A DNA stretch of 64,000 nucleotides, from assembly GCA_023701125.1 (NCBI GenBank), contig JAMPXO010000005.1, positions 1 through 64,000 of the forward strand, written 5' to 3'. Below the pieces are notes generated by a model. It was not told where the DNA came from. It worked only from the letters and a program-made list of their open reading frames with translations, and ran no database searches. This DNA is from Vicinamibacteria bacterium (lineage in GTDB: Bacteria; Acidobacteriota; Vicinamibacteria; Fen-336). Both the position numbers and the translations under genes were made by a program. Below are positions 136 through 59,809 of this stretch, piece by piece; the first letter of the stretch is position 1, and every line of letters starts with the position of its first letter.

Positions 136-1260
136 ATGACTGCTGCGCCGCGCCGCGCCGAGCTCGCGCTGGCCCTCGCGAGCCTGCTGCTGGCGGCGGG
201 CGTCGCCGAGGTCGCGGTGCGACTGGCGGTGCCCGCCGGACCGGCGGCCACCGGTTACGCACCGGTCAACACCGCCCGCCGTGAGCGGGCCATGGCCAAC
301 TCCCGCGGCTATCGCGACGCGGAGCGCGCCGTGCCGGCGCCCGCGGGCGTGCGCCGCGTGCTGTCGCTGGGCGACTCCTTCGCCTGGGGCCACGGGATCG
401 AGGCCGAGGACGCCTACCCCGCGCGGATCGAGCGCCGGCTGCGACGCGAGCGGGCGGGTGAGGCCTGGGAGGTGGTCAACCTCGCGCTGCCCGGCCTGCG
501 CAGCGTCGACCACGCCCAGCAGCTCCGCGACGAAGGTTTCGCCTACGGCCCGGAGCTGGTGCTGCTCGGCTACGTGCTGAACGACTCGGAGGACGCGGAC
601 GCGGCCGAGGCCCGCCGCGCCCTGGATTGGCAGGCGCAGGCGGGACCGAGCCCGTCGTTCTTCGATCGCTCCGCGCTGGTTCGCTTCGTGCGCTTTCGCC
701 TGTTCGCCACGGCCGAGAACCGGCGCCGGGTCGAGGGCTATCGCTCGATGTACGCGGAAGACGCCCCCGGCTGGCGGGCGGGTCGCCAGGCGCTGCTGGC
801 GATGGGCGAGCAGTGCCGCGCCCGGGGCGTCCCGTTCGTGGTCGCGATCTGGCCGCTGCTCGGCAACCCGCTCGACGAGCGGTACCCGTTCGCCGCGATC
901 CACGAGAGCGTGGCGCAGGCGGCGGCGGCCGGGGGAGCCACCGTCGTCGACCTGTTGCCGGTGTTCCGCGGCCTGCGCTCCGAGGTGCTGGTGGTCGACG
1001 GGGCGGACGACGAGCACCCCAACGAGGTGGCGCACCGCATCGCCGCCGGCGCGATCCACCGCTCGCTCGCGGCCATCGGGTTCCAGCGCCGGGGTGAACC
1101 CGTCGCCGGTCCCATGGGGGCTCCGTCGCCAACGGAGCTCCTCCGCCCCCAAACCCCCGCCGGGTTCCAGCGCCGGGGTGAACCCGTCGCCGGTCCCATG
1201 GGGGCTCCGTCGCCAACGGAGCTCCTCCGCCCCCAAGCCCCCAGGGCCCCGCGGCCTTGA
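136..1260 (+). CDS. Membrane-anchored SGNH/GDSL-type hydrolase with repeat-derived C-terminus
   Basis: 374 residues. An N-terminal hydrophobic helix (residues ~9-30) is followed by an SGNH hydrolase fold: block I GDSFAWG (catalytic Ser), the N/D block as LNDSED, and a terminal DDEHPN carrying the catalytic Asp/His. Such proteins are usually esterases or O-acyl transfer/deacetylation enzymes acting on envelope glycans outside the cytoplasm; the substrate is unknown. From residue ~315 the protein is encoded by two tandem 84-bp palindromic repeats, giving two 28-residue units starting GFQRRGEPV. SGNH domains normally end near the HPN helix, so this tail is probably an acquired extension. The stop overlaps the next start (TTGA), so the two genes are probably translationally coupled. 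Confidence 0.8.
   Translation: MTAAPRRAELALALASLLLAAGVAEVAVRLAVPAGPAATGYAPVNTARRERAMANSRGYRDAERAVPAPAGVRRVLSLGDSFAWGHGIEAEDAYPARIERRLRRERAGEAWEVVNLALPGLRSVDHAQQLRDEGFAYGPELVLLGYVLNDSEDADAAEARRALDWQAQAGPSPSFFDRSALVRFVRFRLFATAENRRRVEGYRSMYAEDAPGWRAGRQALLAMGEQCRARGVPFVVAIWPLLGNPLDERYPFAAIHESVAQAAAAGGATVVDLLPVFRGLRSEVLVVDGADDEHPNEVAHRIAAGAIHRSLAAIGFQRRGEPVAGPMGAPSPTELLRPQTPAGFQRRGEPVAGPMGAPSPTELLRPQAPRAPRP
1078..1161 (+). repeat. Two-hairpin palindromic element, type A, copy 1
   Basis: 84 bp, starting GGGTTCC. Hairpin 1 has an 11-bp stem with two mismatches around a GTGAA loop. Hairpin 2 is nested: outer clamp GGGGGC/GCCCCC and inner stem GCTCCGT/ACGGAGC. It is read in frame as residues ~315-342 of the SGNH hydrolase. 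The next copy follows directly with a period of exactly 84 bp (28 codons), so tandem duplication preserves the frame. Confidence 0.9.
1162..1245 (+). repeat. Two-hairpin palindromic element, type A, copy 2
   Basis: Near-identical tandem copy of the element at 1078-1161, differing near its 3' end (AAGCCCC where copy 1 has AAACCCC). It encodes the last full 28-residue unit of the SGNH hydrolase, which stops about 15 bp later. The near-identity suggests a recent duplication. Confidence 0.9.
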
Positions 1261-2423
1261 GCCACGCGCTGGCACCCGTGGTCGCGGCGCTGGTGCTGCG
1301 CGTGCTGCTGGTCCTGTTGTGCGACCGGGTGGTGGCCGACGTGCTGCGCTATCACAAGCTGGCCAGTCACCTGCTCGACGTCTCGTGGAATCCCTACCAG
1401 GCGCCGCGCCTCTACCCGTACCCGCCGGTGTGGATGTTCTGGGAGGCGGCCAGCCTCGGCCTCGAGCGCCTGCTCGGCCTGCCCTTCGCGGTCGTGGTCA
1501 AGCTGCCGGTGGTCGCCGCGGACGTCGCCGTCGTCGAACTGCTGCGGCGCGCGGCCGGGGCCCGCGCCGCCTGGATCTACGCGCTTCACCCGGTCGCGCT
1601 GCTGATCGCCGCGGTCCACGGCCAGTTCGACGTCCTCGCGCTGCTCGCAGTGATGGCGGCGGTGCTCGCGCTGGGCGCCGGTCGCGCCGACCGCAGCGCG
1701 CTGTGGCTGGCTCTCGCCATCGCGCTGAAATCGTTCCCGGTGCTGCTGCTGCCGTTCTTCACACTGCACGCGGCGCAGGCCTGCGGCGGCTGGCGCACCG
1801 CCGCGGGCCTCCGCGCCGCGGCGCGTTACGGGGCGCTGGCCACGTTGCCGGTCGCCGCTGCGCTCGTCCCCTTCCTGTTCCACGACGCCGGCGCGGTGCG
1901 CCGCGAGCTGTTCGGCTATGGCGGCATCGCCGACTTCGGCTGGATCGGCGCCTGGCGCGGCCTGCGCCAACTCGCGACGGGCGCCCTCGCCCGCTCGGAG
2001 GCGGCACTTTGGCCGGACGCCGTGACCGCGGGCAAGGCGGCCTTCCTGCTGGGGCTGGCGGCGCTCGCCGTCACCGCGTTGCGTCGGCCCGCGGCCTGGC
2101 CGCCGGCGCGCGCGGCGTTCGTGATACTGCTCGGCTTCCTCGGCCTCTACGGCGCGATCAGCGCCCAGTACCTGCTGTGGCCACTGCCGTTCGCGTTGCT
2201 GATCGGCGAACGCTCGCGCGCCTGGGATGTCGCCGCGGCGCTCGCGCTGTGCGGCTTCTACCTCTTCCTCGCCCCGGGCACGCTGGTGCCCTCGCGGCTG
2301 CCGGAGCCGTGGCATGCGCTGGCCGGCCGTGCGTGGGCGGTTGGCGCCGCGGCGACGTGGCTGGCGGGTGTCGGGTGGCTGGTGCGCGCGCTGCGTTCCG
2401 CGCCGGTCCAGGGGGCCTCGTGA
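1257..2423 (+). CDS. Polytopic GT-C fold glycosyltransferase, GT87/DUF2029-like
   Basis: 388 residues, almost entirely hydrophobic with about ten membrane segments. YPYPPVWM (53-60), HGQFD (121-125) and LKSFPVLLLPF (~158) match conserved loops of polyprenol-phosphate-sugar-dependent GT-C mannosyltransferases (GT87/PIG-M-like). The likely role is transfer of a sugar from a lipid-linked donor to an envelope glycan on the outer face of the inner membrane. The TTG start overlaps the upstream stop (TTGA) and the stop overlaps the next gene's GTG (GTGA), making a tightly coupled three-gene unit. Donor and acceptor cannot be read from sequence. Confidence 0.72.
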   Translation: MSHALAPVVAALVLRVLLVLLCDRVVADVLRYHKLASHLLDVSWNPYQAPRLYPYPPVWMFWEAASLGLERLLGLPFAVVVKLPVVAADVAVVELLRRAAGARAAWIYALHPVALLIAAVHGQFDVLALLAVMAAVLALGAGRADRSALWLALAIALKSFPVLLLPFFTLHAAQACGGWRTAAGLRAAARYGALATLPVAAALVPFLFHDAGAVRRELFGYGGIADFGWIGAWRGLRQLATGALARSEAALWPDAVTAGKAAFLLGLAALAVTALRRPAAWPPARAAFVILLGFLGLYGAISAQYLLWPLPFALLIGERSRAWDVAAALALCGFYLFLAPGTLVPSRLPEPWHALAGRAWAVGAAATWLAGVGWLVRALRSAPVQGAS

Positions 2424-4213
2424 GTCGTGGCGAGCGGGCAGGGCTGGCGCTGGCGCTGCTCGTGTTCCTGGCGCTGTGCGCCGACACCGCGCGGCGCACG
2501 TCGGCGACCTTCGACGAGATCGCCCACGTCGGCGCGGCCTACACCCACCTCGCCTTCGGCGACTACCGGCTGACGCCCGAGCACCCGCCGCTGGTCAAGA
2601 ACTGGATCGCCTTGCCGCTGGTCGGAGGCGGCGCGCAGTTCAAGGCGGACGACGACGCCTACCGCATGCGGCGACCGTGGGAGCTGGGCAAGCGCTTCCT
2701 GTATCGCTGGAACGACGCCGACACGCTGCTGTGGCGCGCGCGCATGATGAACGCGCTGCTGGGCGCCGCGCTGATCGCCGCGACCGCCCTGTTCGCACGG
2801 CGGCTGGGCGGCCCGGTCGCGTTCTGGTGCGCGCTGCCGCTGTGCGCGCTGCACCCCGACTTCCTCGCCCACGCTCCGCTGGTCACTACCGACATCGGCG
2901 CCGCGCTGTGGGTGCTGCTGGCCGTAATGGCCGCCGAGCGCCTGCGTGGGGGCTTGGGGGCGGAGGAGCTCCGTTTGCGACGGAGCCCCCATGGGACCGG
3001 TGGCGGGCTCTGCCCGGCACCGGAACCCGACGGCATTACGCCGGCGCGGGTCGCAGCGCTTGGCCTGGGCGCCGGCGCCGCGCTCGCCACCAAGATGTCG
3101 GCGCTGGTGCTGTTGCCCGTGCTGGCGCTGCTGGCGCTGGCGTTGTGGCGAGCGGGGGCGGCGCCGCGCCGGCTCGCCGCCGCCGCGCTCGCGACCACGC
3201 TGGTCGCGGGCCTCGCGCTGTGGACCGCGTACGGCTTCCGGACCACGATCGCCCGCGACGCGCAGGTCGAGGCGGCGATCGACTGGCAGAAGCACGTCCG
3301 GCAGGCGCCTGCGATCTCGGCGCCGGTGCTCGCTCTGCGCGCGACGGGCCTGCTGCCTGAAGCCTGGCTGTACGGCTTCCTGCGCTTCTACACGACCTCG
3401 GGTGACGTGCCGGCGTTCCTGCTCGGCCTTCGCCGCGACGGCGGCTTCCCCCACTATTTCCTGGTCACCTTCGGGCTCAAGACGCCGCTGCCGCTGCTGG
3501 CGCTACTGGCCGCCGCGGCAGCGCTCGCGGCCACGAAGAAGCTGGAGCTGGTGCGCGGCGCGGCGCCGTTCCTGCTCGTGCCCGTCGTGGTGTTCGGCAC
3601 GCTGACGCTGACCCGCGGCATCCACATCGGCCATCGCCATCTGCTGCCGATCTACCCGTTCCTGCTGGTGCTGGCGGCCCTGGCTGCCGCGGCGCTGTGG
3701 CGGCGCGGTGCACCCGCGCGGCTCGCCCTCGTCGCGCTGCTCGTGGCCCGTGCCGCGGACGAGGCCGCGCTGCACCCGCACCACCTGGCGTTCTTCAACG
3801 CGGTCGCGGGCGGCCCGGCCCGTGGCTGGGAGGCCCTGGTCGATTCCAACGTCGACTGGGGTCAGGACCTGAAGGCGCTGGTCGCCTGGCAGCGCGAGGC
3901 GCAGGTGCCGCGGCTCAAGCTGTCGTACTTCGGCACCGCCGACGCGGAGTACCACGGCCTCGCCGCGGACTTCCTGCCCGGCTACCAGCTTCCGCGCCCG
4001 CGCGAGACCACCTGGAGCGTGAGCCGCGGCGACGTGGTCGCCGTCAGCGCCACCAACCTGCAGAAGGTGTACGTGCCCGCGGCCGCCTGGCCGCTGATGG
4101 ACCGCCTGCGCGCGCTGACCCCGCGGGCGCGGGTCGGCTACTCGCTGTTCGTCTACGACGCCGACTTCGACTGGCAGGCCGAGCCGCCGGCCGCGGCTGA
4201 AACCGAGCCCTGA
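2420..4213 (+). CDS. GT39/PMT-like polytopic glycosyltransferase with in-frame repeat insertion
   Basis: 597 residues with multiple membrane helices. FDE at 31-33 corresponds to the acidic pair in the first periplasmic loop of PMT/ArnT-type GT-C enzymes. HPPLVK (55-60) and a C-terminal SNVDWGQDLK segment are typical of the bacterial dolichyl-phosphate-mannose-protein mannosyltransferase-like group. Residues ~176-203 ([10 protein letters not shown]...) come entirely from an 83-bp palindromic element inserted in reverse orientation without breaking the frame. The GTG start at 2420 overlaps the upstream stop. A much longer open frame extends upstream but is only the antiphase shadow of the preceding gene. 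Confidence 0.8.
   Translation: MSRGERAGLALALLVFLALCADTARRTSATFDEIAHVGAAYTHLAFGDYRLTPEHPPLVKNWIALPLVGGGAQFKADDDAYRMRRPWELGKRFLYRWNDADTLLWRARMMNALLGAALIAATALFARRLGGPVAFWCALPLCALHPDFLAHAPLVTTDIGAALWVLLAVMAAERLRGGLGAEELRLRRSPHGTGGGLCPAPEPDGITPARVAALGLGAGAALATKMSALVLLPVLALLALALWRAGAAPRRLAAAALATTLVAGLALWTAYGFRTTIARDAQVEAAIDWQKHVRQAPAISAPVLALRATGLLPEAWLYGFLRFYTTSGDVPAFLLGLRRDGGFPHYFLVTFGLKTPLPLLALLAAAAALAATKKLELVRGAAPFLLVPVVVFGTLTLTRGIHIGHRHLLPIYPFLLVLAALAAAALWRRGAPARLALVALLVARAADEAALHPHHLAFFNAVAGGPARGWEALVDSNVDWGQDLKALVAWQREAQVPRLKLSYFGTADAEYHGLAADFLPGYQLPRPRETTWSVSRGDVVAVSATNLQKVYVPAAAWPLMDRLRALTPRARVGYSLFVYDADFDWQAEPPAAAETEP
2946..3028 (-). repeat. Palindromic element inside a glycosyltransferase gene (type A, reverse)
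   Basis: 83-bp copy in reverse orientation within the GT39-like gene. On its own forward strand hairpin 1 reads CCGGTGCCGGGC-AGA-GCCCGCCACCGG, so the T:A pair replaces the C:G pair of the consensus (paired change). Hairpin 2 keeps the GGGGGC/GCCCCC clamp. I translated all six frames across this copy and none contains a stop. Confidence 0.9.
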
Positions 4214-8009: not shown

Positions 8010-9554
8010 CTAGAAGATCTCCCAGCGGGCGCGCAGCGTCAGCGTCCAGGTCGCCAGCAGGGCCGCCAGCAAGGTCGTGCGACCTGGGTTCCAGGCCTCC
8101 AGCCGCGCCGTGGCCGCCAGCAGCAGGGCCGGCATCAGCGGGATCAGGATCCGGCCCGCTTCGCCGCGCAGCGTGCCCGACAGCAGCAACAGGGCGAGGC
8201 CCGCCGCCGTGGCCTGCGTCCAGCGGCCGGCCGGCGAGGCCTCGCCCGCGCGGGCGTGCGCCGCGATCGCGACGGCGAACAGCACCACGATCGGCGGACC
8301 CAGGAACACGAACAGGTCGACCGGGTTGAACAGCAGCCACAGCGCATACGAGCGCGGCGCCGTGTAGGCCTCGCGATGGATCTCGAGTGCGGTCAACGCG
8401 GCCCGCAGCGGCGCGTGGCCGAGCAACGCGGTGGACGCGAACACCGCGACAGCCACCGACGCCGAGGTGGTGGCGACCAGCGCTGCGCGCCGCGGGTCGG
8501 GGCGTAGCGCCCACAGTGCGGCCGCGCACGAGATCGCCAGCGGCACCGCCATGCCGTAGGAGAAGAAGAGCGCGCCGCCGCCGCACACGCCGGCCAGCGC
8601 GGCGAAGGCCAGCGCGCGAGCGCCGCGCGTGCGTGCGGCGGCCGCCATCGCCAGTGCCGCCAGCGCAACCGGCAGCGCCAGCGCCTGGTCGAACTGCGGG
8701 GCCTGCAGCAGCGGCCCGGGCAGCAGCAACCAGAGCAGGCCCACGCGGGTGGCGGCGACTTCGTCGAGGCCGAGGGCGCGGGCCAGCGCCGCGACCGGCC
8801 ATGCCGTCAGCGCGGCGCACAACACGATCAGCAGCGGTCCCCACACGGCCGCGGCTCGCGCCGAGAGGCCGGACGCGACGGGGGTTTGGGGGCGGAGGAG
8901 CGCCGTTTGCGACGAAGCCCCCATGGCACCGGCGGAGGGCTCCGCCCGACGCCGGAACCCGATATCCGGCCTCGCGGGCTCCTCGCGCATCTGCGCTGCA
9001 CGCAGCGTCGCCCGGGCGACTCCGGGGCTGGCGTCGGCCACCGCGATCAGGCCACGGTAGGCCAGCACCGGCCCGGGCGGGTGGGTCGCCGCGTGTTTGG
9101 CCTCCTTGCGGTAGCGCGGCAGCGCGTCGGCGTGGAGGCGCAGGAAACCCGTCGGGTCGCGGGCGTCCTCGCCCGCGGCCACCGTCAGGTACGACGTGAT
9201 CGTGCGCGACAGCGCGCGCCGCGCGTACGTCTGCAGCGCGCCACCGGGCTCGACGGCGACGAGGGCGATGCCGAGGCCGAAGCCGGCCAGCGTGCCCACG
9301 GCCAGCACGCCGCGCGCCGCCGCCGCCGAGCGGGCGCGGCCGGCGCTGGCGACCAGTCCGACCAGCGCCGCCGCGCACGCCACGGCGGGCGTCCACGGCC
9401 CCGGCGCGGGCGCGGCCCGCAGCTCCCACTGCCACTCGGGCGGGTACGGTGCCGGTCCACGCAGCAGGGTGGGGAAGTCGAAGACCACCGCCGCCAGCGC
9501 CACCGCCGTGACGAGCGCGGCAGCGGCGAAAGCCCGTCGCGGGTCCGGGCTCAT
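8010..9554 (-). CDS. Polytopic membrane protein, GT-C glycosyltransferase-like, with repeat insertion
   Basis: 514 residues with about ten hydrophobic segments. The motif ATHPPGPVLAYRGL around residue 160 matches the HPPG-type loop of GT39-like mannosyltransferase relatives, and APQFDQALALPVAL fits a periplasmic-loop/helix pattern. The acidic pair expected in loop 1 is not obvious, so function is uncertain; a lipid-linked-sugar transferase is likeliest. Residues ~199-226 (GFRRRAEPSAG...) are encoded by a palindromic element read in the same frame as in the SGNH hydrolase at 136-1260. The stop lies 13 bp from the start of the GGDEF gene, so the two may be cotranscribed. Confidence 0.65.
   Translation of the reverse strand: MSPDPRRAFAAAALVTAVALAAVVFDFPTLLRGPAPYPPEWQWELRAAPAPGPWTPAVACAAALVGLVASAGRARSAAAARGVLAVGTLAGFGLGIALVAVEPGGALQTYARRALSRTITSYLTVAAGEDARDPTGFLRLHADALPRYRKEAKHAATHPPGPVLAYRGLIAVADASPGVARATLRAAQMREEPARPDIGFRRRAEPSAGAMGASSQTALLRPQTPVASGLSARAAAVWGPLLIVLCAALTAWPVAALARALGLDEVAATRVGLLWLLLPGPLLQAPQFDQALALPVALAALAMAAAARTRGARALAFAALAGVCGGGALFFSYGMAVPLAISCAAALWALRPDPRRAALVATTSASVAVAVFASTALLGHAPLRAALTALEIHREAYTAPRSYALWLLFNPVDLFVFLGPPIVVLFAVAIAAHARAGEASPAGRWTQATAAGLALLLLSGTLRGEAGRILIPLMPALLLAATARLEAWNPGRTTLLAALLATWTLTLRARWEIF
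8880..8960 (-). repeat. Palindromic element inside a membrane-protein gene (type A)
   Basis: 81-bp copy whose forward strand is the coding strand. Hairpin 1 has a GGA loop closed by GGGC/GCCC, with two mismatches. Hairpin 2 keeps a near-complete GGGGGC/GCCCCC clamp. The copy is more diverged than those at 1078-1245, suggesting an older insertion. It adds 27-28 residues and no stop. Confidence 0.88.
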
Positions 9555-9582
9555 CGCCGGCGACCGCGGGTCGGGCCTCGGC

Positions 9583-10464
9583 TCAGAAGCGGACTTCCTT
9601 GACCTTGCCGTTCTCGAAGATGACGACGATCTCGGGGTAGGTCCACTTCTGCTGGTTCTGGAACGTCAGCTCCTGCTTCGGCTTGCCCAGGATGTCGATC
9701 ACCTGCAGCGGCGTCATGCCGACGGCGATCTCGCGCTTGGCCGGTGCGCCCTGCTGGGGGCGGCTCTCCGGCTGCGGCGCCGCGCTGCGGCTGCTGCCGC
9801 GGCTCTCCTCGCTGCGAGGGGCGCTGCGGCTGTCCCCGCTGCGCGGTTCGTCCACGGGCGGGCGCTGGCGGGTCGACGGCGCACCGCCGTCGCCACCCGT
9901 GCGCCACCGCGCCGCGAAGTTGCGGGCGTCGTCCTCGGTGCGGAACGGGCGCACCCAGTTGCTGACGAAGGCGACCACGTCGGCGAGGTCGCGCGAGGCC
10001 AGCGTGTGGGTCTTGGGATAGGGCAGGAAGAACTTGAAGTTGGTGGCCACCGGCTCGCGCTTGGTGGTCTTGAACGGCCACTCGCCGCGGGTCACCTTCT
10101 TGGACTCGACCGAGACCCAGCGCAGGTCGATCCGGTTGTCCTTCCAGGCGATCGACTCCAGCTCCATCACCTCGCCCTGGTCGAGGAAGTCGACCGCGAC
10201 CTGGTCCACGTCGAGCAGCCCGCCCGAGTTCTTCCAGTCGCTCTCGCTCAGCACGTCGATCGAGTAGTGCTCGGCCGTCGCGTTGCCGTCGGTGCCGTAG
10301 ATCGAGGTGGTCGGCACCCCGCGCTGCATGACGACGCCCCACACCCGTCCGGGCGGGAACTTCGACTCGAACTGGGCGCGGAACTCCTTGGAGATCTTTT
10401 CGGCGGAGGCCGGCGCGGCCACGGCCAGCGCCACGGCCATCCCCAACGCGGACAGACGATTCAT
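9583..10464 (-). CDS. Secreted protein with C-terminal SmpA/BamE-like segment
   Basis: 293 residues. The signal peptide MNRLSALGMAVALAVAAPASA ends in ASA|E. The mature protein has a folded N-terminal part (to ~190) containing FFLPYPKTHTLASRDLADV. A long Ser/Arg/Pro-rich low-complexity linker (~200-245) follows. The last ~45 residues (GMTPLQVIDILGKP..., QQKWTYPEIVVIFENGKV) resemble SmpA/OmlA-like domains, where GMT...V...LGKP and W.Y are typical. The ATG at 10464 is preferred to one four codons upstream because GGAG lies 6 nt before it. It is divergent from the M16 peptidase gene. Function unknown; an envelope role is inferred. Confidence 0.72.
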   Translation of the reverse strand: MNRLSALGMAVALAVAAPASAEKISKEFRAQFESKFPPGRVWGVVMQRGVPTTSIYGTDGNATAEHYSIDVLSESDWKNSGGLLDVDQVAVDFLDQGEVMELESIAWKDNRIDLRWVSVESKKVTRGEWPFKTTKREPVATNFKFFLPYPKTHTLASRDLADVVAFVSNWVRPFRTEDDARNFAARWRTGGDGGAPSTRQRPPVDEPRSGDSRSAPRSEESRGSSRSAAPQPESRPQQGAPAKREIAVGMTPLQVIDILGKPKQELTFQNQQKWTYPEIVVIFENGKVKEVRF

Positions 10465-15101: not shown

Positions 15102-15344
15102 ATGATCCGCGTCCGCGTCCACGTCAGCCTGAAGAAGTCGGTGTTCGACCCCCAGGGCCGCACCATCCACGAGGCACTCGGCGGCCTCGGCTACGCCGCC
15201 GTCTCCGACGTGCGGGCAGGCAAGTTCTTCGACCTGGCGATGGAAGGCGACGACGCGGCCGCGGCGAAGGCCCAGGCCGAGGAGATGGCGCGGCGCGTGC
15301 TGTCGAACCCCGTGATCGAGGGCTTCACGGTGGAGGTCCTCTAG
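15102..15344 (+). CDS. purS: Phosphoribosylformylglycinamidine synthase subunit PurS
   Basis: 80 residues. PurS is the small structural subunit of the three-part FGAM synthase (PurS-PurQ-PurL) that converts FGAR to FGAM with glutamine and ATP. The sequence shows the typical VRVHVSLKKSVFDPQG start, the GYAAVSDVRAGKFFDL core and the NPVIEGFTVEVL end. GAGGAG lies just upstream of the ATG. The stop codon is directly followed by the purQ ATG. Confidence 0.96.
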   Translation: MIRVRVHVSLKKSVFDPQGRTIHEALGGLGYAAVSDVRAGKFFDLAMEGDDAAAAKAQAEEMARRVLSNPVIEGFTVEVL

Positions 15345-32027: not shown

Positions 32028-34703
32028 CTACTCCGCGCGCAGCAGCTCGAGCGGGGTGCGACGGAACGCCTCGGCGGCGGTCAGCACGCCCGCCAGCCCG
32101 GAACCGGCGGCGAGGCCGGCGGACAGCGTCACCAGCGCCGCCCACGGCACCGCGGGCTCGAGCTCGAACCAGGTCTCGAGCAGCGGCAGGCCGAGGCCCA
32201 GCGCCAGCGCCGAGGCGCTGATCGCGGCCAGCAGGCCGAGCGCCATGCCCTCCACCACGGCCACCGCGCGGACCTGGGCGCGGGTGGCGCCCAGCGTCTT
32301 CAGCAGCGCGGCCTCGCGCAGCCGCTCGCGGCGCAGCGCCAGCAGCGCGGCGGCCAGCACCACCGCGCCGACGACGAGCGAGAAGCCGGCCATGAAGCGC
32401 ACCGCCAGCGCCACCTGGCGCAGCAGGCCCTCGACCGAGGCGCGCACCGCGGTCACGTCGAGCACGGCCAGGTTGGGGAAGCGCTCGAGCAGCTCGCGCT
32501 GGGCGCGGCCGCGGTCCGCCGCGCTCTCCAGCCGGGCCAGCGTGACGAACGTGCGCGGCGCCACTTCCAGGGGTGCCGTCGGGTTCCGACGCCGGGCGAA
32601 GCCCGTCGCCGGTCCCTTGGGGGCTCCGTCGCCAACGGAGCTCCTCTGCCCCCAAACCCCCGCCGGGAACACCGCGAAGAAGTTGGGCTCGATCCGCGTC
32701 CAGTCGGTGCGCCGCAGGTGGGTGACCCGCGACGGCAGCGGCACCCCGGACACGTCCCACACGAGCTCATCGCCGACGCCCACGCCGAGTTCCGCCGCGA
32801 GGCCCGCGTCGAGCGAAACCGGAACGGGCTCGTCAGGCCGCAGCGCGCGGCCTGCGCCTTCCGCCCATCGTTCGCCCGCGACCGTGGTCTCGGCGGCGGT
32901 TGCGTGGTCGCGGTACGAGCTGCGGTACTCGCGGCGCAGCAGGCCGCGCGGGCGGCGGTCTTCGCCCTCCGCGTCGGTTTCGCCCAACTGGTCGCTGACG
33001 CTCGCGCCCTTCACGCTCGACAGCCGCATGGCGACGATCGGCACCGCGGGATCCGGTGCCGCGCCGCGCGCGCGCAGGTCGGCGGTGATCGCCTCCACCT
33101 GGTCGGGCTGGATCTCGAACACGACGACGTTGGCGCGGCCCGCGGCGTCGCCGAGGTCGAGGCCGCGCACCAGGTTGGCCTCGACCAGGCCCATCAGCGC
33201 GAGCAGGAAGCCGCCGAAGCCGAGGGCGACGACGACCGGCGTCGTCTGGTGGCCGGGCCGCTGCAGGTTGGCGAGGCCCTGGCGCACGGCGTAGGGCAGC
33301 GCCGCGGGCAGCGGCCGCGCGAGCGCGCGCACCAGCAGGCGGGCGACCAGCGCCAGCACCAGTGCGACCAGCGCCGCACCGCCGGCGAAGGCCAGCCCGG
33401 GGCCGACGCGCCTGGCCTGGACGACGGCCAGCGCCGCCAGCGTCGCCGCCGAGGCGACGACGACTGTCGCCCGCGCCGGATCGCGCCACGGCCGCGGCGC
33501 CGCGGCCTGCAACCCCTCGCGCAACACCGCCAGCGCCGGCACGTCGCGGATCGCCAGCAGCGGCAGCGCGGAGAACGCGAACATCGCCAGCACGCCGGTG
33601 GCCAGGCCGGAGGCGATCGCGAGCGGCGCCGCCGCCGGCTCGACCACGACCGGCAGCCAGTCGCCCAGCAGCCGCGGCAGCGCCCGCGCCACCACGAGCC
33701 CGAGCCCGGAGCCGACCAGGCCCGCGAGCAGGCCGGCGAGCCCGACCTGGAAACCGAGCGCAGCGGCCAGGTCGCGCCAAGAGGCACCGATCGCGCGCAA
33801 GACCGCGAGGCTCGGCAGCGCGCGGCGTACGAAGGCGTGGACCCCGGCCGCGGTGCCGAGCCCGCCCAGCAGCAGCGCGGCGAAGCCGACCAGGCCGAGG
33901 AAGCGCGACATCCGCGCCAGCGCTTCGCCCGCTCGTTGCTCGTCGTCGCGCGGCGAACGCAGCGTGACCCGTTCGCGCGCCAGCCGCGGGCGGTACGCGG
34001 CGACCAGCGGCACCGGGTCGCGGCCCTCGGCCAGCGCGAGGTAGACCTCGTGCCGCACCCGCGCCCCGAACCCGATCAATCCGGTGGCGGCGACGTGGCG
34101 GGCGTCGATCACGACCCGCGGGCCGAACGCGGTGCGGAACGCGAGGTCGCCGGGCCAGCCCTCGAAGGTGCCGGCGATCTCGAAAGACAGCGCGCCCAGC
34201 TCCAGCCGTTCGCCGACCGCCACGTCGAGCGAGGCGAGCAGCGACGGGTCGACCAGGAGGGCCGGTGCCGGGTCCGCCGCGAGCCGCTCGCGGGCGGCGG
34301 CGGGCGTGACCCGGAAGTTGCCGTGGAAGGGGAATCCACCTTCGATCGCGGAGACCTGCACGAGCCGTGCGCCGTCGCGGCCGGCGACTCGCGCCATCGC
34401 GCCGAAGCTGGTCGCCCGCGACAGCCGCACCCCGGGGCCGGCCTCGGCCTGGAGTGCGGCCAGTTGCTGCTCCGCACCCGCGGTGAAGGGCCGGTTGGCG
34501 CCGAGCGCGAGGTCCGCGCCGAGCAGGCCGCGCGCCTCGCGTTGCAGCGCGGCGCGGGCCCCGGCCTCGAACGCGGAGACCGAGACGAGAGCGGCGACCC
34601 CGATCGCCACCGGCAGCGCGAGCAGCAGCAACCGCGACGGCTGGTGACGCAGCTCGCGCCGCGCCGTCTGCCACGCGAAGCGGAGGCGCACGCGTTCAGC
34701 CAC
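32028..34703 (-). CDS. YbbP/FtsX-type ABC transporter permease with in-frame repeat insertion
   Basis: 891 residues, with the two FtsX-type halves of the YbbP family: about ten membrane helices and a large periplasmic domain after the first helix (~45-265). [19 protein letters not shown] and [19 protein letters not shown] are the paired FtsX-domain signatures. It forms an exporter or lipase-linked complex with the YbbA-like ATPase. At residues ~681-708 the conserved [10 protein letters not shown] is separated from [12 protein letters not shown] by a repeat-encoded insertion of about 28 residues. The GTG start overlaps the ATPase stop. In other bacteria a TesA-like esterase gene neighbours this system, as here. 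Confidence 0.9.
32581..32664 (+). repeat. Palindromic element inside the ABC permease gene (type A)
   Basis: 84 bp, oriented opposite to the gene. It is read in a different frame from the other intragenic copies, giving a peptide starting [12 protein letters not shown]. Hairpin 1 has a GAA loop closed by GGGC/GCCC; hairpin 2 is intact. It lies in the loop preceding the last FtsX half, a periplasmic region where an insertion could be tolerated. Confidence 0.9.
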
Positions 34704-35373
34704 GCGCTTCGTCCGCGACCAGGCGGCCGTCGTGCAGGCGCAGCACGCGGTCGGCGCGGGCGGCGAGGTCCAGGTCGTGGGTGACCAGCACCAGCGTGGT
34801 GCCGCGCTCGCGGTGGATCTCCTCGATCAGCTCGATCACCGCGGCGCCGGTGCGGGCATCGAGGTTGCCCGTGGGCTCGTCGGCGAACACGACCCGCGGG
34901 TCGGCCGCGAATGCCCGGGCCACGGCCACCCGCTGCTGCTCGCCGCCCGAGAGCTGGCTCGGGTAGTGATGGCTGCGCTCGCCGAGGCCGACCCGCGAGA
35001 GCAACTCGCGGGCGCGCTCGCGCGCGGGGCGGCCCAGCAGCTCCAGCGGCACGCTCACGTTCTCGAGTGCCGTCAGTGTCGGCACCAGGTGGAACGACTG
35101 GAACACGAAGCCGACCTTCTCGGCGCGCAGCCGCGCGCGCGCGTCTTCGTCCAGCGGCCCGAGGTCGGTGCCGTCGAGCACGACGCGGCCCGCACGCGGC
35201 CGGTCGAGGCCCGCCAACAGGCCCAGCAGCGTGCTCTTGCCGCTGCCCGAGGGGCCGACGATCGCGGTCGTCGACGAGGCCTCCAGGGCGAACGTGATAG
35301 CGTCGAGCACGGTCAGCTCGCGGCCACCGGAGGCATAGGACTGCGTGAGCGAAACGCACTCGATCATGGGCAT
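34696..35373 (-). CDS. ABC transporter ATP-binding protein, YbbA/LolD type
   Basis: 225 residues. Walker [10 protein letters not shown] (~40-48), the Q-loop [17 protein letters not shown], signature [15 protein letters not shown], Walker [13 protein letters not shown] and the H-loop THD are all present. It is the ATPase for the YbbP-like permease that follows with an 8-bp overlap. The start is taken at ATG 35373, with AAGG 6 nt upstream; an ATG two codons later is also possible. It is divergent from the esterase gene, with starts only about 25 bp apart. Confidence 0.93.
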
Positions 35374-37744: not shown

Positions 37745-37756
37745 GCGGTGATCATC

Positions 37757-37844
37757 GGGTTCCGGCGCCGGGGTGAACCCGTCGCCGGTCCCGCAGGGGC
37801 TCACGCCGCGAAACGGACGCGGCTCCGCCCCCGCACCCCGGGGC
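37757..37844 (+). repeat. Two-hairpin palindromic element, type B, copy 1
   Basis: 88-bp unit starting GGGTTCC, 13 bp after the ftsE stop. Hairpin 1 keeps the GTGAA loop. Hairpin 2 has a new inner stem, GCCGCG/CGCGGC, inside the GGGGC/GCCCC clamp, so base pairing is kept although the sequence differs from type A. Confidence 0.9.
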
Positions 37845-37942
37845 GGGTTCCGACGCCGGGGTGAACCCGTCGCCGGTCCCGCAGGGGCTCACGCCGCGAA
37901 ACGGACGCGGCTCCGCCCCCGCACCCCGGGGCGGGTTCCGAC
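37845..37942 (+). repeat. Two-hairpin palindromic element, type B, copy 2 plus partial third
   Basis: A direct tandem copy with a period of 88 bp (to 37932), followed by the first ten bases of a third copy, which ends 7 bp from the udk stop. The period is not a multiple of three, consistent with a non-coding position. Confidence 0.88.
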
Positions 37943-48976: not shown

Positions 48977-49064
48977 GCCGCCCCCGGGGTGCGGGGGCGG
49001 AGCCGCGTCCGTTCGCGGCGTGAGCCCCCGCGGCCCGAGCGCCGGGGTTCCCCCGGCGCGAGCC
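48977..49064 (-). repeat. Two-hairpin palindromic element, type B, after purE
   Basis: On the minus strand the copy begins immediately after the purE stop. Hairpin 1 is a perfect GCGCCGGGG-GAA-CCCCGGCGC; hairpin 2 has the type-B inner stem GCCGCG/CGCGGC within GGGGGC/GCCCCC. It is also 5 bp from the end of the convergent secreted-protein gene. Confidence 0.88.
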
Positions 49065-49066
49065 GC

Positions 49067-49600
49067 CTATGAATCCAGCAGGGTCTTCAGGCGGCCGGGC
49101 AGGTCGGCGGCCTTGTCGGCGATCTCCTCCGCCATCTGCTTGCGGCGGTCGCCCAGCAGCCGCCGCAGGCGGCCGTCCTGCAGGGCGAGGATCGCGACGG
49201 CCAGGTGGCCGGCGTTCTTGGCGCCCATCGCGCCCACGCCCACCGTCGCCACCGGGATGCCGGGCGGCATCTGCACGGTCGAGAGCAGGGCGTCGAAGCC
49301 CAGGAGCGGCGACGACGCCAGCGGCACGCCGATCACCGGCAGCGTCGAGTGCGCCGCCATCGCGCCTGCCAGGTGCGCGGCCCCGCCGGCGCCGGCGACG
49401 ATCACCTTCAGGCCGCGGCGCTCGGCGTTGCGGGCGAACGCCGCCGCCTCCTCCGGGCTGCGGTGGGCGGAGAGCACGCGCATGTCGTACTCCACGCCGT
49501 AGACCTCGAGCACCCGCGCCACGTCGGCCATCACGGGCAGGTCCGAGTCGCTGCCCATCACGATCCCGACCCGCGGCTCCGCCTTCGACTTGTTCGGCAC
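49067..49600 (-). CDS. purE: N5-carboxyaminoimidazole ribonucleotide mutase
   Basis: 177 residues. [13 protein letters not shown] and the active-site SAHRSPE (His) are diagnostic, as is [25 protein letters not shown]. The class I enzyme moves the carboxylate from N5-CAIR to CAIR. purK is not in the window. The GTG start at 49600 has AGGAG 8 nt upstream and lies 11 bp after the purD stop, so purD-purE form one unit. Confidence 0.96.
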
Positions 49601-51019: not shown

Positions 51020-52153
51020 ATGCGCCGCATCCAGCCCGTCCAGCGCAGCGTCGACCTCGCCGCGCGGCGGGCGGTGATCGACTTGCGCACGCGGGTCCGG
51101 GACGCCGCGCGCCACGTCTTCACCCTCGACCTCTACTCCCACCTCGACGAGCGCCACCCCGAGACCCACGCCGGCTGGTGGGCGCTGCGGCTGCCGGAGG
51201 GCGACGCCCAGGTCCGGGTCGGGCTCGACCTGACCACGATCGGCCCGCATTCCGTGTGGCTGGAGCGGGACGGCCAGCGCGAGGGCGCGATCGACTCGTG
51301 GACCAACCCGGACTACCGCTTCGCCCCGCTGATCGGCATCCAGTGCGTGCTGCGCTCGCCCGAGGGTCGGGTGCTCGAGAACCGCTTCGTGACCGGCAAG
51401 GTCAACGATCCGACGGTGATGGCCGGCTACTACAAGAAGCTCCACGCCGAGGGCGGCTACACGCCGGTCGAGCCGTTCCTGTTCGAGTTGCACGCCGAGA
51501 TGCTGCGGCGGCTCGAGCCGCTGTTCCTGCGCCACGTGCCGAAAGGCGGGGTGGTGCTCGACGCCGGCTGCGGGCGCAGCTTGTTCACCGAGATCCGCCC
51601 CGACTGGCCGTTCCGGGTCGTGGCCTCGGACGTCGACCTCGACCTGCTGAAGAGCCGTCGCGACGCCTTCCCGCAGGTCGAGTGGGCGGTCGGCTCGGCC
51701 CACCCGCTGCCGTTCAAGGACGCGGCCTTCGACGCACTGTTCGCGGGCGAGTTGATCGAGCACCTGGGTGACCCCGCGCCGGCCGTGGCCGACTTCCACC
51801 GCGTGCTGAAGCCGGGCGGGACCTTGATCCTGACGACGCCCAACCGGCTGCGGCTCGCCAACCTGGTCGACCGCTCCGACCGGCCGTACAGTCCCGATCA
51901 CCTGTCGGAGATGTCGTACGACGAGGTCGCGGTGCTGCTGCGCGCGGGTGGCTTCGAGATCGTGCGCACGACCGGCTTGCACCTGGAGCTGTTCCTCAAC
52001 TGGTTCTCGCCGCTGCCCAAGCTCGACTGGCTGCAGCGCTACTGGAACCGGCCGTGGGCGGTGCCGCTGATGCGGCTGATGCTGAAGGCCGGCGGGCTGT
52101 TGCCGCGCTACGCGGTGGACCTCGTCTTCGTCTGTCGGCGGCTCGCGCCGTGA
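51020..52153 (+). CDS. Class I SAM-dependent methyltransferase
   Basis: 377 residues. An N-terminal domain (1-~150) of unknown type precedes a Rossmann methyltransferase: motif I VVLDAGCGRS (178-187), the acidic loop ASDVDL, LIEHLGDP (motif II region) and LKPGGTLILTTPN (motif III). The C-terminal part has a hydrophobic patch (LELFLNWFSPLP) typical of methyltransferases in glycan or lipid loci. Its last codons and stop are part of a palindromic element (52141-52225). The next gene is a GT-like membrane protein. Confidence 0.85.
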   Translation: MRRIQPVQRSVDLAARRAVIDLRTRVRDAARHVFTLDLYSHLDERHPETHAGWWALRLPEGDAQVRVGLDLTTIGPHSVWLERDGQREGAIDSWTNPDYRFAPLIGIQCVLRSPEGRVLENRFVTGKVNDPTVMAGYYKKLHAEGGYTPVEPFLFELHAEMLRRLEPLFLRHVPKGGVVLDAGCGRSLFTEIRPDWPFRVVASDVDLDLLKSRRDAFPQVEWAVGSAHPLPFKDAAFDALFAGELIEHLGDPAPAVADFHRVLKPGGTLILTTPNRLRLANLVDRSDRPYSPDHLSEMSYDEVAVLLRAGGFEIVRTTGLHLELFLNWFSPLPKLDWLQRYWNRPWAVPLMRLMLKAGGLLPRYAVDLVFVCRRLAP

Positions 52154-52225
52154 GTGAATCACGGCGCTCGGGCCACTGGGCTCCGTCGCACAGCTCCTCC
52201 GCCCAGACCCGGGCACGCCGGCTCG
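52141..52225 (+). repeat. Diverged palindromic element overlapping the methyltransferase stop
   Basis: Hairpin 1 is a perfect GCGCCGTGA-GTGAA-TCACGGCGC (52145-52167), whose left arm contains the TGA stop of the methyltransferase gene. Hairpin 2 is shortened but retains a paired clamp CTGGGC/GCCCAG in place of GGGGGC/GCCCCC. The loop GTGAA is identical to that of type A. Both stems differ from other copies by paired changes. Confidence 0.75.
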
Positions 52226-59668: not shown

Positions 59669-59753
59669 CCTGGGGGGGCGGGGGCGGAGGAGGCTTCGCC
59701 TCCGACGGAGCCCCCGCGGGACTGCCGCCGGATTCACTCCGGCGGCAGAACCC
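59669..59753 (-). repeat. Two-hairpin palindromic element, type C, near rpsU/pta
   Basis: Forward on the minus strand. Hairpin 1 is the best in the family: CTGCCGCCGGA-GTGAA-TCCGGCGGCAG, perfect 11 bp with the same GTGAA loop. Hairpin 2 has a third inner stem, GGAGGC/GCCTCC with loop GAA, inside the clamp. It lies between rpsU and pta, downstream of both. Confidence 0.9.
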
Positions 59754-59758
59754 AATAG

Positions 59759-59803
59759 AGCCGCACCGGAGCCGCCACCGGCCCGGCGCGGCTTTTGCTT
59801 TTT
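59759..59803 (+). terminator. Rho-independent terminator after rpsU
   Basis: AGCCGC (59759-59764) pairs with GCGGCT (59788-59793), with further CCGG pairing within. TTTTGCTTTTT follows at once. This is the one classic T-tract terminator in the window. It serves rpsU and may be read through from the other side as part of the pta 3' end. Confidence 0.7.
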
Positions 59804-59809
59804 CCGGGG

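Follow-up and report, generated by a model that had tools for sequence, protein, structure and literature searches.

Positions 59669 to 59758 (+ strand; 88.2 bits) of the window, the 64,000-nucleotide stretch of DNA analysed here, contain one of ten copies of an element of about 84 nt made up of two hairpins. In this copy, hairpin 2 (59678 to 59717, + strand), as judged from sequence and fold, consists of a clamp, in which GCGGGGGC (59678 to 59685) pairs with GCCCCCGC (59710 to 59717), and an inner stem formed by GGAGGC (59689 to 59694) and GCCTCC (59698 to 59703). Hairpin 1 (59722 to 59748, + strand) is a perfect 11-bp stem, CTGCCGCCGGA/TCCGGCGGCAG, whose arms at 59722 to 59732 and 59738 to 59748 enclose the loop TTCAC; it is compensated relative to CCGGCGACGGG/CCCGGCGCCGG. 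GGG (59718 to 59720) and CCC (59751 to 59753) form its foot. The copy lies 3' of an rpsU-like (S21) ORF, in the stretch that separates this ORF from a convergent pta-like gene, both names being read from the sequence. Just 3' of it, at approximately 59759 to 59805, follows another hairpin, distinct from the element, that resembles a terminator and carries a T-run, GCCGC..GCGGC followed by TTTTGCTTTTT. Since that hairpin and TTTTGCTTTTT stand directly downstream, the 59669 copy is not simply the terminator of rpsU. In the congener Vicinamibacteria bacterium ACD1 the orthologous place, the 3' region of rpsU, carries no such copy.

The general layout of the element is (C/T)GGGGG-TTT-GGGGGCGGAG...GAGCCCCC-AT-GGGA-[hairpin 1, 11+5+11]-AACCC-GAYGG, with a consensus of approximately 75% GC and a flank profile of C/T GGGGG at the 5' edge and CCCGAYGG at the 3' edge. 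Four of the window copies form tandems: 1157 to 1245 and 1073 to 1161 (both - strand; 99.7 and 103.9 bits) are the first and second members of a pair spaced by 84 nt, and 37752 to 37843, with an inner stem of the GGAGCCGCG type, neighbours 37840 to 37931 (both - strand; 84.7 and 74.1 bits, respectively). Three are in frame within ORFs, namely 2947 to 3027 (+ strand; 81 nt, or 27 codons, within a model match at 2945 to 3033) in ORF 581-4210 (+), 8877 to 8965 (+ strand, thus antisense) in ORF 8013-9665 (-), and 32576 to 32664 (- strand) in ORF 32031-34826 (-). The last of these ORFs encodes an FtsX/MacB-type ABC transporter permease; neither ORF 581-4210, which looks like the gene of a membrane protein, nor ORF 8013-9665 gave a Pfam or NCBIfam match. 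The copy at 48982 to 49073 (+ strand, 66.5 bits), between convergent genes, and the diverged copy at 52132 to 52215 (- strand, 50.5 bits), with the clamp CTGGGC/GCCCAG, belong to a GAGC..GAGCCGCC hairpin-1 subfamily. The hairpin-1 foot of this subfamily, CCCGAGC..GCGAGCCGCC, also seen at loci L110, L053 and L057, is altered on both sides together. No Rfam family gave a covariance-model match above its gathering score in the window.

A covariance model built from the ten window copies was searched against the genome of origin, a 5.41-Mb draft in 254 contigs, and at least 155 copies at 56 to 106 bits were found among the matches listed. Many are in tandem, spaced by 84 to 88 nt, and others are dispersed. 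Arrays of the element often stand at contig ends (L031 at the start of C152, L100, L109, L110, L060, L064 and L087), where the draft assembly seems to break, so the copy number is probably underestimated. Degenerate copies that overlap or face each other head to head, and that may be dimer forms, were noticed at L065:2833-3039, L137:1489-1695 and L101:15091-15250. The sequence right after L058:5586-5679, L093:12039-12123 and L081:18617-18706 (GGGATTCGAACCCC, GGACTCGAACCCC) resembles the 3' part of a tRNA gene on the opposite strand, and these three copies seem to adjoin tRNA 3' ends. Among 60 genomes searched, the element was present in its own genome and two congeners (36 and 50 matches) and absent from every genome of other genera, including 11 of the same family. 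A pattern scan identified one congener as ACD1 (JAMQGV) and the other probably as Acidobacteria bacterium ACD2 (WYBL). Carriage by phages was rejected, the same kind of scan having given no match in IMG/VR.

The stems quoted by the sequence-only reading, CCGGCG/CGCCGG, CCGGTG/CACCGG, GCGCCGTGA/TCACGGCGC, GCGCCGGGG/CCCCGGCGC and those at 59669, as well as the clamp CTGGGC/GCCCAG, are all present in the DNA. Its claim that hairpin-1 stems vary and yet stay paired was borne out by 15 compensated pair types among 95 distinct, strictly anchored 27-mers, with examples such as CTGCCGCCGGA/TCCGGCGGCAG, CCAGCCCCGGG/CCCGGGGCTGG, CCTGTG/CACAGG and CCGATG/CATCGG. In these 95 hairpins 97.2% of the stem cells were paired, compared with 90.8% (standard deviation, 0.35; maximum, 92.4%) when whole 3' arms were redealt. 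In 149 distinct genome copies, 97.9% of the cells were paired, and changes on both sides were found in 11 of 19 pairs (85 cells). No both-side-change measure was reached by any of 500 shuffles, and sliding the 3' partner by 1 to 3 columns lowered the both-side changes to 1 to 5 pairs and 5 to 17 cells.

As the copies are related, changes were also counted on a tree, against a null that kept the number of changes per column (300 replicates). In the own genome there were 23 distinct types of double pair-preserving change, compared with 1.5 under the null (maximum of 4 in the 300), and 41 such changes on single branches, compared with 1.6 (maximum, 5). The two sister species alone gave 12 distinct types (null, 0.9; maximum, 4) and 15 double changes (null, 0.9). 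The counts of distinct types hold even if copies recombine with one another. The sequence-only reading had named an R-scape test as its check and a lack of significant covariation as grounds for giving it up; covariation is evident in the tree-aware counts. In an R-scape-like per-pair G-test with a simulated null, which approximates that check but had too little power, no single pair was significant in the own genome and 1 of 19 was significant in the sister species. The check thus came out weak per pair and strong in aggregate, and it is on the aggregate that the claim of covariation rests. The clamp stem hardly varies, and therefore the signal lies in hairpin 1.

Stem position 7 was persistently unpaired, as A-G or G-G, in about 40 of the 95 hairpins. 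On the tree, changes from GC to GT outnumbered those from GC to AC by 34 to 11 in the own genome and by 6.3 to 0.35 in the sisters. Two stem positions account for most of this excess, and some of it may be inherited within subfamilies; for comparison, the ratios of C>T to G>A in unpaired columns were 103:82 and 31:19. The excess of G-T over A-C suggests that the pairing is read on one single strand. Single copies folded moderately better than shuffles matched in composition (z from -0.8 to -5.2, on both strands), and the shuffles themselves averaged -31 to -53 kcal/mol, high GC content alone giving strong folds.

Filled and empty sites were compared by split alignment and protein alignments, MAFFT global alignments being messy. 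At 33 collinear loci, where a copy of the own genome had both flanks aligned to a congener, none of the congener sites carried the element, nor did any give a match to its model. In the cleanest cases the insert was mostly 81 to 87 nt. At 2945 of the window, CGCCTGCG|CGACGGC is the sequence of the empty allele, and 81 nt separate its two parts in the filled allele. At L051, where the copy lies at 15143, the word GTCGGGG of the target, single in the empty allele, flanks the insert on both sides. Among 102 nontandem copies, the left and right flanks matched best at an offset of 11 (26 excess matches), a weak, statistical sign of a short duplication that is clean at some loci only. The copies are species-specific, genus-restricted insertions with a high turnover.

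A considerable part of them reside in protein genes. Contexts were classified by coding potential, with a hexamer model that had been trained on long ORFs, for 128 arrays with clean flanks; the proportions are drawn from about 1.5 Mb around the matches, that is, from the contigs that bear them. Thirty-four of the 128 arrays, half of them sense and half antisense (17 each), were spanned by a single reading frame without a break, although 33 is the safer count, one of them (L059) being unsupported on ORF tracing. All six frames of the element occur among the copies within ORFs, and in-frame copies add about 27 amino acids, with recurrent peptides such as a sense one of 29 residues and the antisense VGFQRRAEPVAGPMGAPSQTELLRPQTPDG. 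In protein alignments with congeners, a gap of 20 to 29 amino acids was observed at the element in 10 of the 11 cases that spanned it, and one of 19 amino acids in the eleventh. The window copies at 2945, 8877 and 32576 are among those supported by gaps: ACD1 reads ..IAADRLR-DGVTP.. across the insertion site of ORF 581-4210, and its orthologs lack 29 and 28 amino acids at the second and third sites, respectively. One copy is inserted in HisF, after residue ~137 in the numbering of solved HisF chains, and the HisF profile still matches over its full length (352 bits; cutoff, 294.6). Other hosts are an acyl-CoA ligase, a family-2 glycosyltransferase and a PstC-type protein. To judge by their intact ORFs and profiles, the host proteins are probably functional. 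Selection for coding capacity was rejected: the frames of the element were open in 0.57 to 0.92 of the copies, about as often as in dinucleotide shuffles (0.73 to 0.83), and the tolerance is thus due to the GC-rich composition of the element and to its length, which is close to a multiple of three. Around the copies, convergent gene pairs outnumbered divergent ones by 22 to 5. Where coding sequence was found on one side of a copy, it lay on the 3' side of the element in 31 of 41 cases, which could mean that such targets are preferred or that tandem neighbours went undetected.

A mobilising enzyme was sought in the genus. The Y1_Tnp profile (PF01797) had no match in the three genus genomes (85 to 95% complete), in which control profiles matched, and a RAYT/REPtron reading was accordingly rejected. 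An autonomous partner among the ten genes that lie between nearby copies was likewise discarded, since none is a transposase; these genes are ordinary or weakly classified (beta-lactamase-like, MetK, DnaX, UvrC, pseudouridine synthase and others).

Among known repeats, the element is of the same kind as the Rickettsia palindromic elements (RPEs) and intragenic REPs, which together are the nearest known elements. RPEs were described by Ogata et al. (2000 and 2002; cited in PMC10969869) and are treated in PMC3767692. Like RPEs and the Wolbachia palindromic elements, it is a short multicopy palindrome found both between genes and in frame within unrelated housekeeping proteins (PMC10969869, PMC3767692, PMC3733652); the 34 of 128 arrays, the ortholog gaps and HisF place it in protein genes that are presumably functional. 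In contrast to RPEs, it has about 75% GC, an unrelated consensus without the ATGAC core, two hairpins side by side and frequent tandem arrays. It is restricted to one Acidobacteriota genus, its host has a 5.4-Mb genome, and its sites are not common to congeners, whereas the insertions in RPE-bearing genes of R. japonica occupy sites that are conserved in their rickettsial orthologs (PMC3767692). Judged by consensus and distribution, it is therefore not an RPE by sequence or host. With CGTC-tagged REPs it shares palindromic structure, high copy number, some intragenic copies and the lack of an identified dedicated transposase, none having been reported for them (PMC3733652), and its 3' edge CGAYGG reads CCRTCG on the opposite strand. 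Those REPs are defined by an unpaired CGTC at one end, a stem of 8 to 9 bp starting with A-T pairs and a CCA tail (PMC3733652); the element differs in its stem, of 11+3 bp without terminal A-T pairs, in having no CCA tail and in its edge, which is partly target DNA, since the empty site at window 2945 contains it too. REPs of the GTAG-tagged type, which have RAYT transposases, are alike in having stem variants with alternative complementary bases, G-T pairs and a preference for convergent or unidirectional spacers, all already known for REP subfamilies (PMC3733652), but no terminal unpaired GTAG appears in the flank profile of the element and no Y1 (IS200-like) transposase was found in the genus. 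The element thus fits neither REP class by tag or transposase. It partly recalls MITEs (including ERIC, RUP and BOX), which are likewise small nonautonomous insertions with stable transcript folds; its ends are a short GGGTT..AACCC, and the duplication-like signal at offset 11 is clean at some loci only. Terminal inverted repeats of any length are not evident beyond these short ends, and no parent insertion sequence was identified. A search of the open-access literature gave no report of an element of this type from Acidobacteriota.

The sequence-only reading had concluded that pairing conserved without sequence implies a functional structure. The covariation counts uphold this statement in so far as selection, or a process equivalent to it, keeps the stems paired. 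A function in the host for each copy does not follow, given that none of 33 sites is shared, that sense and antisense insertions are equally frequent and that pairing is as intact in genes (99.1% sense and 97.5% antisense) as elsewhere (98.1%). Covariation alone is no proof of a regulatory RNA of the host, because a mobile element gives the same signal. A rival explanation is that the copies are RNA structures of 3' regions acting in the host (terminators, mRNA stabilisers or sRNA-like RNAs), with pairing kept for the transcripts. The excess of convergent gene pairs, the strong folds and the tolerance of G-T pairs would agree with it, but 34 copies lie in ORFs, half of them antisense and with pairing just as intact, sister species have no copies at the same sites, and the 59669 copy stands upstream of a separate T-tailed terminator-like hairpin, in a region where ACD1 lacks the copy. 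We regard this explanation as quite improbable.

The matched changes might also arise by mutation, through template switching, repair of the palindrome from arm to arm or recombination of whole hairpins between copies. Copies coexist, which makes recombination possible, and in the own genome single-branch double changes are as numerous as single pair-breaking ones (41 each). Recombination, however, is unable to create 23 and 12 distinct compensated types, and under copying between arms one would expect neither that G-T exceeds A-C nor that position 7 stays unpaired, so that we hold a mutational origin to be unlikely. Somewhat fainter still than a host RNA is the prospect of a function as double-stranded DNA independent of orientation, either a cruciform or a binding site for gyrase or a nucleoid protein; it would suit a palindromic, dispersed element without orientation preference relative to genes (17:17), although the G-T to A-C asymmetry points to one strand, the stem sequence is not conserved, and differences in presence between congeners are unexpected for a system of chromosomal binding sites. 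As for chance complementarity in a GC-rich genome, high GC alone does give strong folds, but all the covariation controls oppose it and the tree-aware counts already refute it; its probability is negligible.

Copies that are species-specific, lie in genes in both orientations and are equally well paired there are better explained if the structure is a requirement of the element itself. We thus favour, with a probability of about 0.75, a nonautonomous mobile palindromic repeat of approximately 84 nt, restricted to one Acidobacteriota genus, whose structure is needed for its own propagation. Structure-dependent propagation, with selection acting during it, is what we infer from these data. An enzyme supplied in trans is predicted to recognise the folded element as a single strand, either ssDNA or RNA of '+' polarity. 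If recognition took place during copying or insertion, only copies with intact hairpins would propagate, and subfamilies would then gather matched stem changes, partly via G-T intermediates. Given a length near a multiple of 3 (81, 84 or 87 nt) and a GC-rich, mostly stop-free sequence, insertions at tolerant places of proteins would survive as inserts of about 27 amino acids, and the remaining ones would settle between genes, away from promoters. More tentatively, the element may be a protein-invading repeat outside the Rickettsiales that spreads via a structure-dependent single-stranded intermediate (ssDNA or RNA) and a yet-unrecognised enzyme, its turnover being fast enough to give each species its own set of in-frame copies in proteins.

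The discussion of palindromes within coding sequences has centred mostly on Rickettsia and Wolbachia, reduced intracellular bacteria in which the insertions are old. Here, an Acidobacteriota genus with large genomes contains a family of hundreds of copies, near perfect in structure; at the loci compared between species, no site is shared. With insertions that are recent, congeners whose alleles are empty and a structural signature that is clear, it becomes possible to test how the element moves and what it does to host proteins, for instance with the insert of about 27 amino acids in HisF.
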